A program made the position numbers and the translations under genes. Of a stretch of 64,000 nt of DNA, positions 6,126-10,825 are shown piece after piece (position 1 is the first letter of the stretch; every line of letters starts with the position of its first letter). The notes beneath the pieces are model-generated. The model was given only the letters and a program-made list of their open reading frames with translations, had not been told where the DNA came from and did not search any database. Where the stretch lies: NCBI RefSeq assembly GCF_900156425.1, contig NZ_FTNO01000001.1:62001-126000 (forward strand), given 5' to 3'. Source of the stretch: Haladaptatus litoreus (GTDB lineage: Archaea > Halobacteriota > Halobacteria > Halobacteriales > Haladaptataceae).

Positions 6126-7019
6126 ATGCAACTGGGCGTCATCGGACTGGGGCGCATGGGTCGAATCGTAGTGGACAGAACGCTCGATGCGGGACACGAC
6201 ATCGTCGCCTACGACGTGGCAGAGGAGGCGGTCGAATCAGCAGAGTCGGCGGGTGCGGAACCCGCCGACTCGGTCGCCGACCTCGCAGAGAAACTCGGTG
6301 ACGAAAAACGAATCTGGCTGATGGTGCCCGCCGGGGAACCCGTGGACGCTGCACTCGAAGATTTAGAACCCTTCCTTGACGAAGACGACGTGGTCGTCGA
6401 TGGCGGAAACTCCTACTTCGAGGATTCGGTTCGACGCGCAGAAACGACCTCTGCGGCGTACCTCGACTGCGGAACCAGCGGCGGCCCCGCGGGTGCCGAA
6501 CTCGGCTTCTCCCTGATGGTCGGCGGGCCGCAGTGGGCCTACGATGAACTGGTTCCCGTGTTCGACGCAGTGGCGACCGGTCCGGATGGCCACGACAGAA
6601 TGGGTGAAGCAGGGTCGGGCCACTACGTGAAGATGGTTCACAACGGCGTCGAGTACGCGCTGATGCAGACCTACGGCGAGGGCTTCGAACTGCTCCACGA
6701 GGGTCGGTACGACCTCGATTTGGAGAAAGTCGCCCGAACGTGGAACAACGGCGCAGTCATCCGCTCGTGGCTCCTCGAACTCTGTGAGGAAGCGTTCCGT
6801 GAGGAAGGCACCGATTTGGGCGACGTGGCCGACCACATCGCGGGTGGTTCGACTGGAACGTGGACGGTGCAGGAAGCGCTGGAACAGGAGGTTCCGGTTC
6901 CGCTCATCTATCAGGCCCTCGGCGAGCGATTCGACAGTCGGTCGGAAGGCCGCTTTTCGCGGCGGTTGGCCAACCGACTTCGGTACGGCTTCGGTCGGCA
7001 CGAGGTCAAACGGGAGTGA
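6126..7019 (+). CDS. gnd: 6-phosphogluconate dehydrogenase, decarboxylating (short type)
   Basis: Converts 6-phosphogluconate to ribulose 5-phosphate with NAD(P)+. The 297-aa length fits the short YqeC/GndA type rather than the 470-aa form. Seen: Rossmann motif GLGRMG (residues 7-12), VDGGNSYFED, the substrate loop GTSGGPAGAELGFSLMVGG, and the catalytic pair K169 and N173 in HYVKMVHNGVEY. The C-terminal helical domain ends in a basic tail. In haloarchaea this enzyme feeds pentose synthesis through the oxidative branch. A KDG kinase gene at the far right end of the window is the only other sugar-acid gene seen. Confidence 0.93.
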   Translation: MQLGVIGLGRMGRIVVDRTLDAGHDIVAYDVAEEAVESAESAGAEPADSVADLAEKLGDEKRIWLMVPAGEPVDAALEDLEPFLDEDDVVVDGGNSYFEDSVRRAETTSAAYLDCGTSGGPAGAELGFSLMVGGPQWAYDELVPVFDAVATGPDGHDRMGEAGSGHYVKMVHNGVEYALMQTYGEGFELLHEGRYDLDLEKVARTWNNGAVIRSWLLELCEEAFREEGTDLGDVADHIAGGSTGTWTVQEALEQEVPVPLIYQALGERFDSRSEGRFSRRLANRLRYGFGRHEVKRE

Positions 7020-7084
7020 CTCCTGCGAGCGACGAGTGAAACGAGCGGTCTCGGCGCGGACCGCACGGAGCACCGAGGTTTTGG

Positions 7085-7134
7085 TCCAGATTTTGCCAGT
7101 GGAGTGACGACTGTCGCTCCGCGCAAAAAAGTGG
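7085..7134. repeat. Extended hairpin repeat between convergent genes
   Basis: The segment reads CCAGATTTTGCCAGT, then an inner hairpin (GGAGTGAC / GTCGCTCC), then GCAAAAAAGTGG. The outer ATTTTGC and GCAAAAA parts also pair, which gives a long two-level stem. The same frame with a different inner stem occurs at 24464-24519. It lies between the gnd stop and the stop of a small reverse gene, so it may act as a bidirectional terminator. Confidence 0.6.
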
Positions 7135-7193
7135 ACGCGCTTTGGTCGGTACTGTATTCGTGGAGCAGTTCCGGCAGAGAACAACTGTCCGTC

Positions 7194-7349
7194 TCACGAA
7201 CGATACAGATGTAGTGCGATGAGGAAGAGTAAAAAGAGCGGAATAATTGAGAACGCCGCTTCGAGCGGAACCAAGACAAGCACTATTGCGGACATGAAGA
7301 CGAACTCAAGCGCGACCAACACGCTCACAGCCTCGGCCGGATTCGCCAC
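7194..7349 (-). CDS. Small two-helix membrane protein (51 aa)
   Basis: A 51-codon frame begins at a GTG (7347-7349) directly after an in-frame stop, and ends at 7194. The product is almost entirely hydrophobic (AVSVLVALEFVFMSAIVLVL, then AAFSIIPLFLLFLIALHLY) with a short acidic linker, which predicts two membrane helices. No frame on the other strand competes. Small membrane proteins of this kind are frequent in haloarchaea and mostly uncharacterised. Translation is inferred from composition alone. Confidence 0.5.
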   Translation of the reverse strand: MANPAEAVSVLVALEFVFMSAIVLVLVPLEAAFSIIPLFLLFLIALHLYRS

Positions 7350-7478
7350 TTTTCAATATTCGTCTCCCCACGACTGTTAATTCTATGGGATAATTCGATT
7401 GCTGGTCGAACGACCGTCACTCCGTTTCCACTCGCCAATCACAATGCTGTTAAACCACCGTTCCGTAGCTTCCGCCAT

Positions 7479-8054
7479 ATGGTAAACGAACTGGGTCTGG
7501 GACTCGGGCTACTGTTCACGCTCACCGCAGTGGCTCTGCACTTCACCAAGGGAACCAAGTGGCGCGCCGCGGACGACATTTCCCAAGAAGTGCTCGACCG
7601 ACGCGCGGCGAGTGTCCCCGAAACCGACTTCCCCGAACCGATGAACCGCTCTATCGGTGGTGGCGGCGCAGTCGCTGTGGGTGCCGGTGCGGAAGGCGAA
7701 CTCGAAGGCGAAGAAGGCGAGGAAGAGGACGCTGGCTTCGACCCCGAAGCGATTCCGGAAGACGAAGTCGAATACTTCGAAGTCGAATACGTCAAAGAGG
7801 GTTCGACCATCGAAGTCGCCAGCAACGAGACGATTCTCGAAGCAGGCGAAGAAGAAGGTTGGGACCTTCCGTACTCCTGCCGCGCAGGGTCGTGTCTCTC
7901 CTGCGGTGCGAAAATCGCCGACGGAGAACCGGACGACATCATTCACAGCAACAACGACACGCTTAGCGACGACGAACTCGACAACGGATACTTCCTGTCC
8001 TGTACGGCCTATCCACAGGCCGACATCAGCGTCGAGACGAACGAAACGCCGTAG
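7479..8054 (+). CDS. Membrane-anchored 2Fe-2S ferredoxin
   Basis: A 191-aa protein with an N-terminal membrane helix (residues 4-21), an acidic Gly/Glu-rich linker (about 60-90) and a plant-type 2Fe-2S ferredoxin domain (about 98-190). The cluster ligands are clear: C134, C139, C142 (CRAGSCLSC) and C175 (LSCTAYP). The acidic DDELDNGYF stretch is typical of halophilic ferredoxins. It would act as a membrane-tethered electron carrier at the cytoplasmic face; its partner is not visible locally. A T-tract follows the gene. Confidence 0.88.
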   Translation: MVNELGLGLGLLFTLTAVALHFTKGTKWRAADDISQEVLDRRAASVPETDFPEPMNRSIGGGGAVAVGAGAEGELEGEEGEEEDAGFDPEAIPEDEVEYFEVEYVKEGSTIEVASNETILEAGEEEGWDLPYSCRAGSCLSCGAKIADGEPDDIIHSNNDTLSDDELDNGYFLSCTAYPQADISVETNETP

Positions 8055-8086
8055 TCTGCTCGCCGTACTCCCTTCGGCGACATTTC

Positions 8087-8099
8087 CTTTTTTGTTTTT
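8087..8099 (+). terminator. T-tract terminator after ferredoxin gene
   Basis: A CTTTTTTGTTTTT run about 33 bases after the ferredoxin stop, in a gap before an unrelated gene. Typical archaeal T-rich termination site by composition. Confidence 0.5.
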
Positions 8100-8155
8100 C
8101 TCACATAATCCGCAAGTCAAAGCGTTGAAATCCTCCGAAATTCTGTCGAATACTA

Positions 8156-8500
8156 GTGACGGAAACGCAGGATACGATTACTGAAGGACGGCTTTCGCGA
8201 CCACTATTTAAGCTCGCGTGGCCGATTGTCATCACGCAACTCCTGCAAGTCGCCTACAACATTACGGACACCATCTTGCTCGGGCGCGTCTCCGCACCCG
8301 CGGTCGGTGCCCTGAGTGTTGCACTTCCCGTTAGCATCCTTATTATTTCCATCAGCGGCGGGTTTACCGTCGCTGGGAGTACGCTCGTCGCCCAGTACAT
8401 CGGCGCAATCGGGGCCAGACTGTGGTTCACCCGCGGGACGTGGAAGCAGGCGGTTATCAGCGAACCGACACCGGCGTCGGGAAGCAGTGTCGAGGACTGA
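8156..8500 (+). pseudogene. MATE transporter with large in-frame internal deletion
   Basis: A 114-aa frame (GTG start) encodes the first 83 or so residues of a MATE multidrug/sodium antiporter (two and a half helices, up to LVAQYIGA) fused directly to its last 30 residues (LWFTRGTWKQAVI). Both parts align to the complete paralogue at 11102-12526: the N-part shares LAWPIV.. and QLLQV.YN..DT.., the C-part shares ALWFTRGTWK. About 360 central residues are missing, leaving an open frame. The junction (8399-8416) contains two near-identical octamers (ATCGGCGC, ATCGGGGC), consistent with repeat-mediated deletion. It cannot transport on its own. Confidence 0.85.
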
Positions 8501-8592
8501 GTCGCATTCGCTACGCTGGAACGATATTTCATCTACTCTGCCGTATGAGCCGCTGAGAAAGACGTATACTGCCAAATCTATAAAAGTCCATC

Positions 8593-8781
8593 ATGCCAGA
8601 AGGATACGTCTGCGACGAATGTGGCGATTTCCTCACCGTCAAACCCCACTCGCTGTTCCGATTCGGTCCCGGTGGACGGGAACAGGACCGCGAGTTCACG
8701 TTTTGCGAAGATTGTGCGCCGAAAATCATCAAAGAACACGGTTGGTCGATTCCCGGTCGGAGCGATGGGAATACGAAATAG
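8593..8781 (+). CDS. Small zinc-finger protein (62 aa)
   Basis: Two CxxC pairs (CDEC at residues 7-10, CEDC near 38-41) separated by about 28 residues predict a zinc-binding fold. The rest is polar (FLTVKPHSLFRFGPGGREQD). It is a compact cytoplasmic protein of the kind found widely in haloarchaea (zinc-finger micro-proteins), with no assigned role. The start follows an AT-rich stretch (AAATCTATAAAAG) about 20 bases upstream that may be its promoter. Confidence 0.7.
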   Translation: MPEGYVCDECGDFLTVKPHSLFRFGPGGREQDREFTFCEDCAPKIIKEHGWSIPGRSDGNTK

Positions 8782-8796
8782 CCCCGTACTCCACCG

Positions 8797-9189
8797 CTAC
8801 CAATGATTCGCCCCGGACTCCCGCAGTCGCTTCTCACGCCAGCAGGTGACTTCTAGTTCGTTTCCGTCCGGGTCGGAAAAGTAGACGCTCGTTTCGGTCT
8901 TCCGCACCGCAATCTCGCGCTCCTCCAATCGCTCCGCAACCTCTTCACAGAACTCCTCCGACGCGTTGAACGCGATATGGCGCGGACTCGTATCATTGGA
9001 AACCTCATCCACCTGAGCGAGATTGAGTCCTTGTCCCTGTCCAAGGTTCAGCCAGTGGTAGTCGTCCGTCCCCGGGTCGCGCCGGTCAACTGACCGCAAA
9101 CCCAGTACGTCCTGATAGAATGAAACCGCTCGTACGAGGTCGGAGACGGGCAGCACGACGTGGTCGAAGCCCTGAATCGAATGTGTCAT
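8797..9189 (-). CDS. VOC-family (glyoxalase/dioxygenase fold) protein
   Basis: A 130-aa single-domain member of the vicinal oxygen chelate superfamily. Seen: FDHVVLPVSDL at the start of the first beta-alpha-beta unit (metal His), FYQDVLGL, the mid-protein RHIAFNASEE (second His) and SVYFSDPDGNELEVTCW at the end (metal Glu). These are the positions used to bind a divalent metal in glyoxalase I-like proteins. The substrate cannot be told; many haloarchaeal VOC proteins act on small thiol or aldehyde compounds, which is only a guess here. Confidence 0.85.
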   Translation of the reverse strand: MTHSIQGFDHVVLPVSDLVRAVSFYQDVLGLRSVDRRDPGTDDYHWLNLGQGQGLNLAQVDEVSNDTSPRHIAFNASEEFCEEVAERLEEREIAVRKTETSVYFSDPDGNELEVTCWREKRLRESGANHW

Positions 9190-9326
9190 GTTCGACTGTT
9201 CTCGGTAGCTGATTTAATACCATCCCACTCACCGGTTTCGAACCGTCCGAAATCAGCGGTTCAAGCGACTCTTACCACACATTTATCTGGCTATTAGTTA
9301 ACACGTCGTGTTGCCATTTACCGTTC

Positions 9327-9488
9327 ATGCACCTCCAGCATCACGACGACGAATACGCGGTTCGGAACCCTGCTGACCTCGCAACGGTTCGACAGACGCC
9401 CGACGGTCAGTGGATTGCAGAAGACGCAACTGGTCGATCTGCTCACGGTTCGACGCCTGCGACGGCAATCGCCGCATTGAGAAGATAA
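9327..9488 (+). CDS. Small protein with HicB-like core (53 aa)
   Basis: A 53-codon frame between two reverse genes. The product ends with DGQWIAEDATGRSAHGST followed by TAIAAL, which resembles the short beta strand plus helix seen in HicB-like and related small haloarchaeal proteins. No HicA partner is next to it, so a toxin-antitoxin role is not supported. Start at ATG 9327 just after an AT-rich region (9280-9302) that could hold the promoter. The gene is short and the similarity is weak. Confidence 0.4.
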   Translation: MHLQHHDDEYAVRNPADLATVRQTPDGQWIAEDATGRSAHGSTPATAIAALRR

Positions 9489-9505
9489 CCGGAAATCGGC
9501 AACGC

Positions 9506-10825
9506 TCAGAAGACGCCGGTTTCGGGAGCCACGTCCAATCCGGCCGCGATTTCGTTCGCCTCCGCACGAATCGCGTCGGCGTCGGCGACGACCACCTCGC
9601 CGTTTTCTTGGAGCACGTCCCCGGCGACCATCGTGAACTCCACGTCGTCACCGTGTGCGCCGAAAACGGCGTGTGAAAGCGGGTCGTACAGCGGTGTCGC
9701 GCGGGTGATGTCGGTCGTTACGCCGATGATGTCGGCCTGCCAGCCTTCCTGTATTTTTCCGACGCAGTCGAATCCGGCGGCTTGAGCGCCGTTTATCGTC
9801 GCCATCTCGAAGATGGTTCCCGCGGGGGCCGCCTGTGCGTCGAGTTCGTCCACCTTTTGCAGGAGGCTCGCTTGCCGCATTTCGGTGAAGGGGTCTAACG
9901 TGTTGTTGCACGGCGGGCCGTCGTTACCGAGCGCGACGTTGATTCCCCGGTCGAGATAGTCGATGATGGGCGCGATTCCGCTGGCGAGTTTCATGTTCGA
10001 AGAGGGGCAGTAGGTGACGTGTGTTCCCGTCTCTGCGAGCACCTCGCGCTCCGATTCGTCCGTCCAGACGCAGTGGGCGAGGACGACATCCTCGCCAGTC
10101 AATCCGACTTCGTCCAACCAGTGAATGTTTCGCTGGCCGGTGTCGGACTCCACGGTGACGATTTCGTCCTGATTTTCGCTCGCGTGGGTATGAATTCTCA
10201 CGCCGTCGTACTTGTCGGTGAGTCGGCGCGCACCTCGGAGACACTCCTCGGTGCAGGAGACGGCGAATCGCGGCGTGACGGCGTACTGAATCCGGCCCTC
10301 ATTCGCGCCGTGGTACTGTCGGATGAGTTCTTCGGTGGTTTCCAGTCCGGTTTTGGTGTCCTCGTGGAGTCCTTCGGGGGCGCGTTTGTCCATCAGCACT
10401 TTTCCGATGCGGCCTCGGATTCCCATCTCTTCCGCGGCGTCGAACGCTCGATTCGCGTGTCGAACCGAGAGATGGTCGATACAGGTGGTCGTTCCGCTCT
10501 CAATGAGTTCGAGGTAGCCCAGTCGGGCGGCGGCGTACATCTCCTCCGCGTCGAGACTGGCTTCCATCGGGAGGACGTATTCGAACAACCAGTCGAGTAG
10601 TTCTGCGTCGTCGGCGATTCCTCGTCCGAGGCTTTGCACCGAGTGAATGTGGCCGCCGACGAGGCCCGGAAGGAGAAGGTCGTACTCGTCTACGTCGTGT
10701 TCGGCATACCTGTCGAGCAGTTCGGTGCGGTTACCGACTGCGTCGATAGTCTCGCCGGAGACGACGACTGCCCCATCTTCGATAATCGTCGTCGCGTCGG
10801 CGACGACTGTTCCAGTCAGTATCAT
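9506..10825 (-). CDS. Amidohydrolase (chlorohydrolase/5'-deoxyadenosine deaminase-like)
   Basis: A 439-aa metal-dependent deaminase of the TrzA/AtzA/MTA-SAH deaminase group. The metal site is intact: H59 and H61 (GGHIHS), H214 in HTHASE, H251 (AHCVW) and D302 (GNDGPPCNN). E217 in HTHASE is the usual proton shuttle. Substrate is not decidable; methylthioadenosine/deoxyadenosine or guanine-type purines are the likely range. The frame is open 36 codons further upstream, but the ATG at 10825 gives the expected MILTGTVV start. Confidence 0.87.
   Translation of the reverse strand: MILTGTVVADATTIIEDGAVVVSGETIDAVGNRTELLDRYAEHDVDEYDLLLPGLVGGHIHSVQSLGRGIADDAELLDWLFEYVLPMEASLDAEEMYAAARLGYLELIESGTTTCIDHLSVRHANRAFDAAEEMGIRGRIGKVLMDKRAPEGLHEDTKTGLETTEELIRQYHGANEGRIQYAVTPRFAVSCTEECLRGARRLTDKYDGVRIHTHASENQDEIVTVESDTGQRNIHWLDEVGLTGEDVVLAHCVWTDESEREVLAETGTHVTYCPSSNMKLASGIAPIIDYLDRGINVALGNDGPPCNNTLDPFTEMRQASLLQKVDELDAQAAPAGTIFEMATINGAQAAGFDCVGKIQEGWQADIIGVTTDITRATPLYDPLSHAVFGAHGDDVEFTMVAGDVLQENGEVVVADADAIRAEANEIAAGLDVAPETGVF

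Follow-up and report, generated by a model that had tools for sequence, protein, structure and literature searches.

A functional MATE transporter has two MatE lobes and about 12 transmembrane helices in ~450 residues, and a protein from which most of the helices are gone cannot work as a transporter in the way known for MATE proteins. Among prokaryotes, relics and pseudogenes that arise by microhomology-flanked deletion are of an ordinary kind. Here we describe a very probable relic of this kind, a 114-codon MATE stub in a haloarchaeon of the genus Haladaptatus, together with the state of the same locus in related genomes. No title found on Haladaptatus pseudogenes or on haloarchaeal MATE efflux pseudogenes deals with this locus. 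By "the window" we mean the whole 64,000-nt stretch of DNA that was analyzed (genome G000, contig 2, 62001-126000); our genus sample comprises nine Haladaptatus genomes (G000-G008).

Structure of the 114-codon frame

The stub is an open frame of 114 amino acids with a GTG start (8156..8500, + strand), in which the beginning of a MATE transporter gene (~84 codons) runs in frame into its end (~30 codons). Residues 23-84 align with positions 1-62 of the 161 in Pfam MatE (8.8e-11). The N-terminal part is 93% identical over residues 1-85, and 94% over 84 codons, to the copy of the same gene in the closest relative, G003, which is far beyond chance. The remaining ~30 residues, AIGARLWFTRGTWKQAVIS..., correspond to the extreme C-terminus of MATE proteins and align with the ends of both the G003 copy and the intact paralogue MATE-1. 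At the DNA level, this C-terminal remnant is 89% identical to G003 over 8402-8467 and 80% identical to G002 (Haladaptatus halobius PSR5, NZ_CP085335.1) over 8398-8500. Positions of the features are collected in Table 1.

Table 1. Features of the MATE stub and its neighborhood, in window coordinates
Feature	Position	Strand	Basis or remark
2Fe-2S ferredoxin gene, conserved upstream neighbor of MATE-2	7479..8054	+	Pfam Fer2 1.3e-15
N-terminal remnant of MATE-2: GTG start, codons 1-83 and most of 84	8156..8406	+	G003 alignment, Pfam MatE
Octamers ATCGGCGC (8399-8406) and ATCGGGGC (8408-8415)	8399..8415	+	from the first-pass annotation; one on each side of the junction
Deletion junction, GGCGC (5 bp) common to both arms	8402..8406	+	blastn segment overlap; arms located in G003
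C-terminal remnant of MATE-2: end of last helix, tail, stop	8402..8500	+	DNA matches to G003 and G002
MATE-1, intact paralogue, 474 aa	11102..12526	+	Pfam MatE 3.1e-62; open in 9/9 genus genomes

The first-pass annotation of the window, made from the sequence alone, had described a MATE gene cut to its two ends by an in-frame deletion, with the frame and the C-terminal tail kept and an intact paralogue 2.6 kb downstream. Our analysis bears this out: the frame is open to the stop at 8500, the tail matches that of G003, and MATE-1 is intact 2.6 kb downstream. The lesion took out the active part of the gene, 1072 bp relative to G003. With 114 aa, one partial MatE match, and a TIGR00797 score of 32.6 against a cut-off of 147.4, the stub fails as a functional MATE transporter. 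Its product, if made, would consist of the first two helices fused to the C-terminal tail, and not of a two-lobed, twelve-helix transporter. We hold with high confidence that the 114-codon frame is a gene relic, produced when ~358 codons dropped out of the middle of a full-length MATE gene in the lineage of the window; the stub has presumably lost its function.

Parent gene of the stub

Comparison of sequences confirms that the parent of the stub is MATE-2, a separate and ancient sister paralogue, and not the downstream MATE-1. In a FastTree phylogeny of 51 proteins plus the G003 copy (entered with X at its breaks), that copy groups with five Halorussus MATE-2 proteins with a support of 1.00 and lies outside the MATE-1 clade; the tree does not have the stub as a leaf, and L077, one of the 51, is a fragment of the same G003 gene. 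MATE-1 was considered as the origin of the stub and rejected, given an identity of 63-65% and the placement of the G003 copy of the stub's gene in another clade. In a scan of contigs, the only Haladaptatus match among those listed, at 63%, is the MATE-1 of H. halobius. The deletion proposed in the annotation stands, but the annotation had overlooked both the separate parent and the genus-wide, apparently repeated, loss of that parent.

The gene is conserved in the sister genus Halorussus, of the same family. In all 16 Halorussus neighborhoods examined (G011-G024, G026 [Halorussus aquaticus], and G027 [Halorussus salinisoli]), the ferredoxin gene is followed immediately by MATE-2 on the same strand, so this order is the old arrangement, and relatives of the window carry an intact homologue at the place of the stub. 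The frame is unbroken in 15 of the 16. The MATE-2 of G019 (L092, G019:C7, about 1396-1399) has one frame break near residue 435, which is either a fresh loss or a sequencing error. Among the other two of the 18 Halorussus genomes in the set, G025 (62% complete) has a piece of MATE-2 at a contig end (81%), and no MATE-2 was found in G009. G010, from a third genus, carries MATE-1 only. A MATE-2 gene of about 472 codons, just downstream of the ferredoxin gene, would have been inherited by Haladaptatus from an ancestor in common with Halorussus.

Deletion junction

The figure of about 360 missing residues given in the annotation holds: allowing for two frameshifts in the G003 copy, the missing piece would amount in an intact frame to about 1074 bp, or 358 codons. 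Both arms and their overlap were read from G003 as a model of the parent, not from the true parent of the window. In G003, the sequence is ...TACATCGGCGC/GGAA at the left arm and ...GTGGGCGC/AATCGGGGCC at the right one; the corresponding sequence of the window is TACATCGGCGCAATCGGGGCC. Among 200,000 random deletions of 300-1200 bp placed in the G003 gene, only 0.76% have an overlap of 5 bp or more, which makes a short-homology event plausible but does not prove it. Most likely, the central part was lost by end-joining or by slippage between two chance copies of GGCGC. The frame would have been kept by a one-in-three chance, so selection is not needed to explain its retention.

The annotation had instead attributed the deletion to recombination between two near-identical octamers at the junction. 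Both octamers exist, and the G003 gene contains each of them once, at positions 244 and 1325, with 1081 bp from one to the other. They are not the recombining repeats, however, since recombination leaves one hybrid copy, whereas the window keeps both side by side; we therefore reject recombination between ATCGGCGC and ATCGGGGC.

Because the genome is listed with 6.96% contamination, we also considered that the junction might be an assembly artefact, that is, a collapsed or skipped segment. Yet the window is collinear with G006 to the left (7194-8233) and to the right (8540-8780) of the junction, the tail of the remnant matches G002 through to the stop (8398-8500), the window differs from G003 on either side of the junction, and the two arms have just 5 bp in common in G003. 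An artefact is extremely improbable on these data.

The DNA behind the stub differs between the window and its closest relative. About 3.8 kb that follow the MATE-2 pseudogene in G003 (L039, G003:C2:1862000-1881000, reverse-complement 6542-10374) have no counterpart in the window; judged by eye, long frames in this stretch look like those of a radical-SAM protein, an alpha/beta hydrolase, and a small membrane protein. In the window, positions 8468-9106 are instead taken up by the gene of a small CxxC protein and by the greater part of a glyoxalase gene. The CxxC protein (8593-8781) has 62 aa and two CxxC motifs and matches nothing in Pfam or NCBIfam; at the DNA level it is conserved in G006 (88%), again next to the relic, and G008 has a matching stretch of 2.4 kb (77%) that includes it.

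MATE-2 in the genus Haladaptatus

With Halorussus MATE-2 as query, no intact MATE-2 was found in any of the nine Haladaptatus genomes: MATE-1 is the top match each time (65-69% identity), so the search revealed no intact copy elsewhere in these assemblies. What is left of the gene varies greatly. In G003, MATE-2 is present at full length behind the ferredoxin gene, with a TAG at codon 5 and two frameshifts. G006 retains two shards, one of 78 bp from the start and one of about 45 bp from a later part. In G002 the C-terminal half lies right behind the ferredoxin gene and contains an in-frame stop and frame changes, and G007 retains the last ~24 bp, inside a 134-bp stretch that is 99% identical to G002. 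In G004, G005, and G008 the ferredoxin gene is there and nothing of MATE-2 was detected behind it. For G001, we found neither ferredoxin nor MATE-2 within 16.5 kb around MATE-1, and no ferredoxin match by DNA. Unlike in the other members of the genus, the G001 locus (L107, G001:C21:952000-968500) has a gnd-like gene (61% identity) and MATE-1 with no ferredoxin found between them.

The 114-codon form was searched for with the stub as query against 59 genomes (its own and 58 relatives) and, at the DNA level, in the nine genus genomes. A short gene widely conserved among relatives would have spoken against a deletion product of this strain, and a comparison of relatives had been suggested in the annotation. 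The form occurs in none of the eight other genus genomes, and among the matches listed, all except the G003 copy lie in open frames of about 310-930 aa; a conserved short gene is rejected.

Replacement of MATE-2 by a further paralogue was likewise considered as the cause of the loss. A paralogue of the G000:C2:309836 type, with matches of about 59-64%, is seen in G000, G002, G004, G006, and G007 but not in the other four genomes, so it does not account for all of the losses. Another MATE paralogue in G006 (G006:C1:2739829-2741203) matches in two frames, a 406-aa frame and then another, and so looks frameshifted as well.

Substitution pattern and timing of the loss

Differences between the window and G003 are mainly synonymous. 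Over 105 codons, with the junction codon entered once and the last nine tail codons left out, we count, with the stop included, 17 synonymous and eight nonsynonymous differences (omega 0.15, bootstrap 0.049-0.357). Including the whole tail, which is variable in intact MATE-2 proteins as well, the 114 codons have 22.5 synonymous and 17.5 nonsynonymous differences (omega 0.24, 0.109-0.481). Omega for MATE-1 in the same pair of genomes is 0.048 (0.019-0.085). Neutral simulations that used the observed transition share never gave so few nonsynonymous changes, either without the tail (0/5000; 8 of 25 observed, neutral mean 16.9) or with it (0/5000; 17.5 of 40 observed, mean 27.7). The difference between MATE-2 and MATE-1 in nonsynonymous and synonymous counts is no more than suggestive (P = 0.07, Fisher's test; input 18 synonymous and 8 nonsynonymous from 106 codon pairs, with the junction codon twice and the last nine tail codons left out). 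For G002 and G003, omega is 0.207 (0.141-0.290) over 282 aligned codons of the C-terminal half including the terminal stop, the alignment being rough at its 5′ end.

The deletion is carried by one genome, and the omega of the stub mixes time before and after it. A low omega, together with the still lower value for MATE-1, indicates constraint during much of the time since the split of the window and G003 and some time without it. Since the differences are mainly synonymous and the lesions are not shared, MATE-2 was probably still under selection in the common ancestor of the window and G003 and was then lost separately in each. We also considered that the gene was already dead in that ancestor, so that the deletion struck an old pseudogene. 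Both copies are indeed broken, an intact copy was found in none of the nine genomes, and the excess of the remnant's omega over that of MATE-1 makes some unconstrained time likely; against this, the TAG of G003 is not common to the window, and the simulations fail to reproduce so few nonsynonymous changes with or without the tail. We consider death before the split improbable.

A mainly synonymous pattern is expected from a selected peptide as well as from a recent loss. The stub could be a working membrane peptide of two helices that was retained once the deletion had occurred, acting for example on MATE-1 as a regulator or inhibitor, and its preserved frame, start, stop, and C-terminal tail, as well as its low ratio of nonsynonymous to synonymous differences from G003, are compatible with such a role. 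That ratio may, however, predate the deletion, and G003, the partner in the comparison, has a stop at codon 5; the 114-codon form is unique to the window within the genus genomes examined; and a nearly invariant Trp at codon 41 has been lost. At this codon the window has Leu, whereas 44 of 51 aligned rows (50 proteins plus the G003 copy) have Trp and six have Tyr, with one gap, which hints at relaxed constraint. At codon 24, G003 has Thr and 48 of the 51 rows have Ile. A new role, conceivable as it is, has nothing specific in its favor beyond the open frame, and we consider it very improbable. Decay, which the annotation had also preferred to a new role, is the likeliest reading of the stub.

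Number of losses

In a tree of MATE-1 (LG+G4, ultrafast bootstrap), the window and G003 are sisters, joined by G006 and then by G008; the other clade comprises G002+G007 and G001+G004+G005, and supports within the genus are 80-100. If MATE-2 was alive in the ancestor of the window and G003, vertical inheritance means that all earlier ancestors within the genus had a live copy too. At least six losses would follow: in the window, G003, G006, G008, the G002+G007 line, and the G001+G004+G005 line. This minimum presupposes the one gene tree, the argument from omega, and the absence of regain by transfer. The losses appear to be independent, the other lineages having broken or lost MATE-2 through other, non-shared lesions. 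Our assessment leans slightly toward a MATE-2 gene that was alive in the ancestor of the genus, is conserved in the sister genus, and was lost at least six separate times among the nine Haladaptatus genomes.

Discussion

The stub itself is ordinary, and the repeated loss of MATE-2 adds some interest. Six losses, if true, would be a sign not of one accident but of a common change by which MATE-2 became useless or harmful across the genus. The locus offers a series that runs from an intact gene in the sister genus through a full-length pseudogene, a two-ended stub, half a gene, and shards to near-complete erasure. With it, the erosion of genes in haloarchaea could be timed, and one could test why a transporter is discarded in one genus and kept in its sister genus. 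There is also a warning for annotation here: an open, in-frame 114-aa "MATE protein" is not a transporter.

Compared with the MATE family efflux transporters (Pfam PF01554, TIGR00797), the stub resembles the start of a MatE domain in residues 23-84 but keeps only 62 of the 161 positions of one such domain, while scores above the TIGR00797 cut-off are reached by MATE-1 and, in its open middle part, by the G003 copy of MATE-2. The stub resembles ordinary relics of microhomology deletion in that its junction bears a short direct repeat, that orthologues are intact elsewhere, and that sister species have other lesions. There is no essential difference from these, except that the deletion keeps the frame and that several stages of erosion are seen in one genus. 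Since close relatives within Haladaptatus show other breaks in MATE-2 or have lost it in other ways, the stub is best seen as ordinary gene decay with an unusually clear record.
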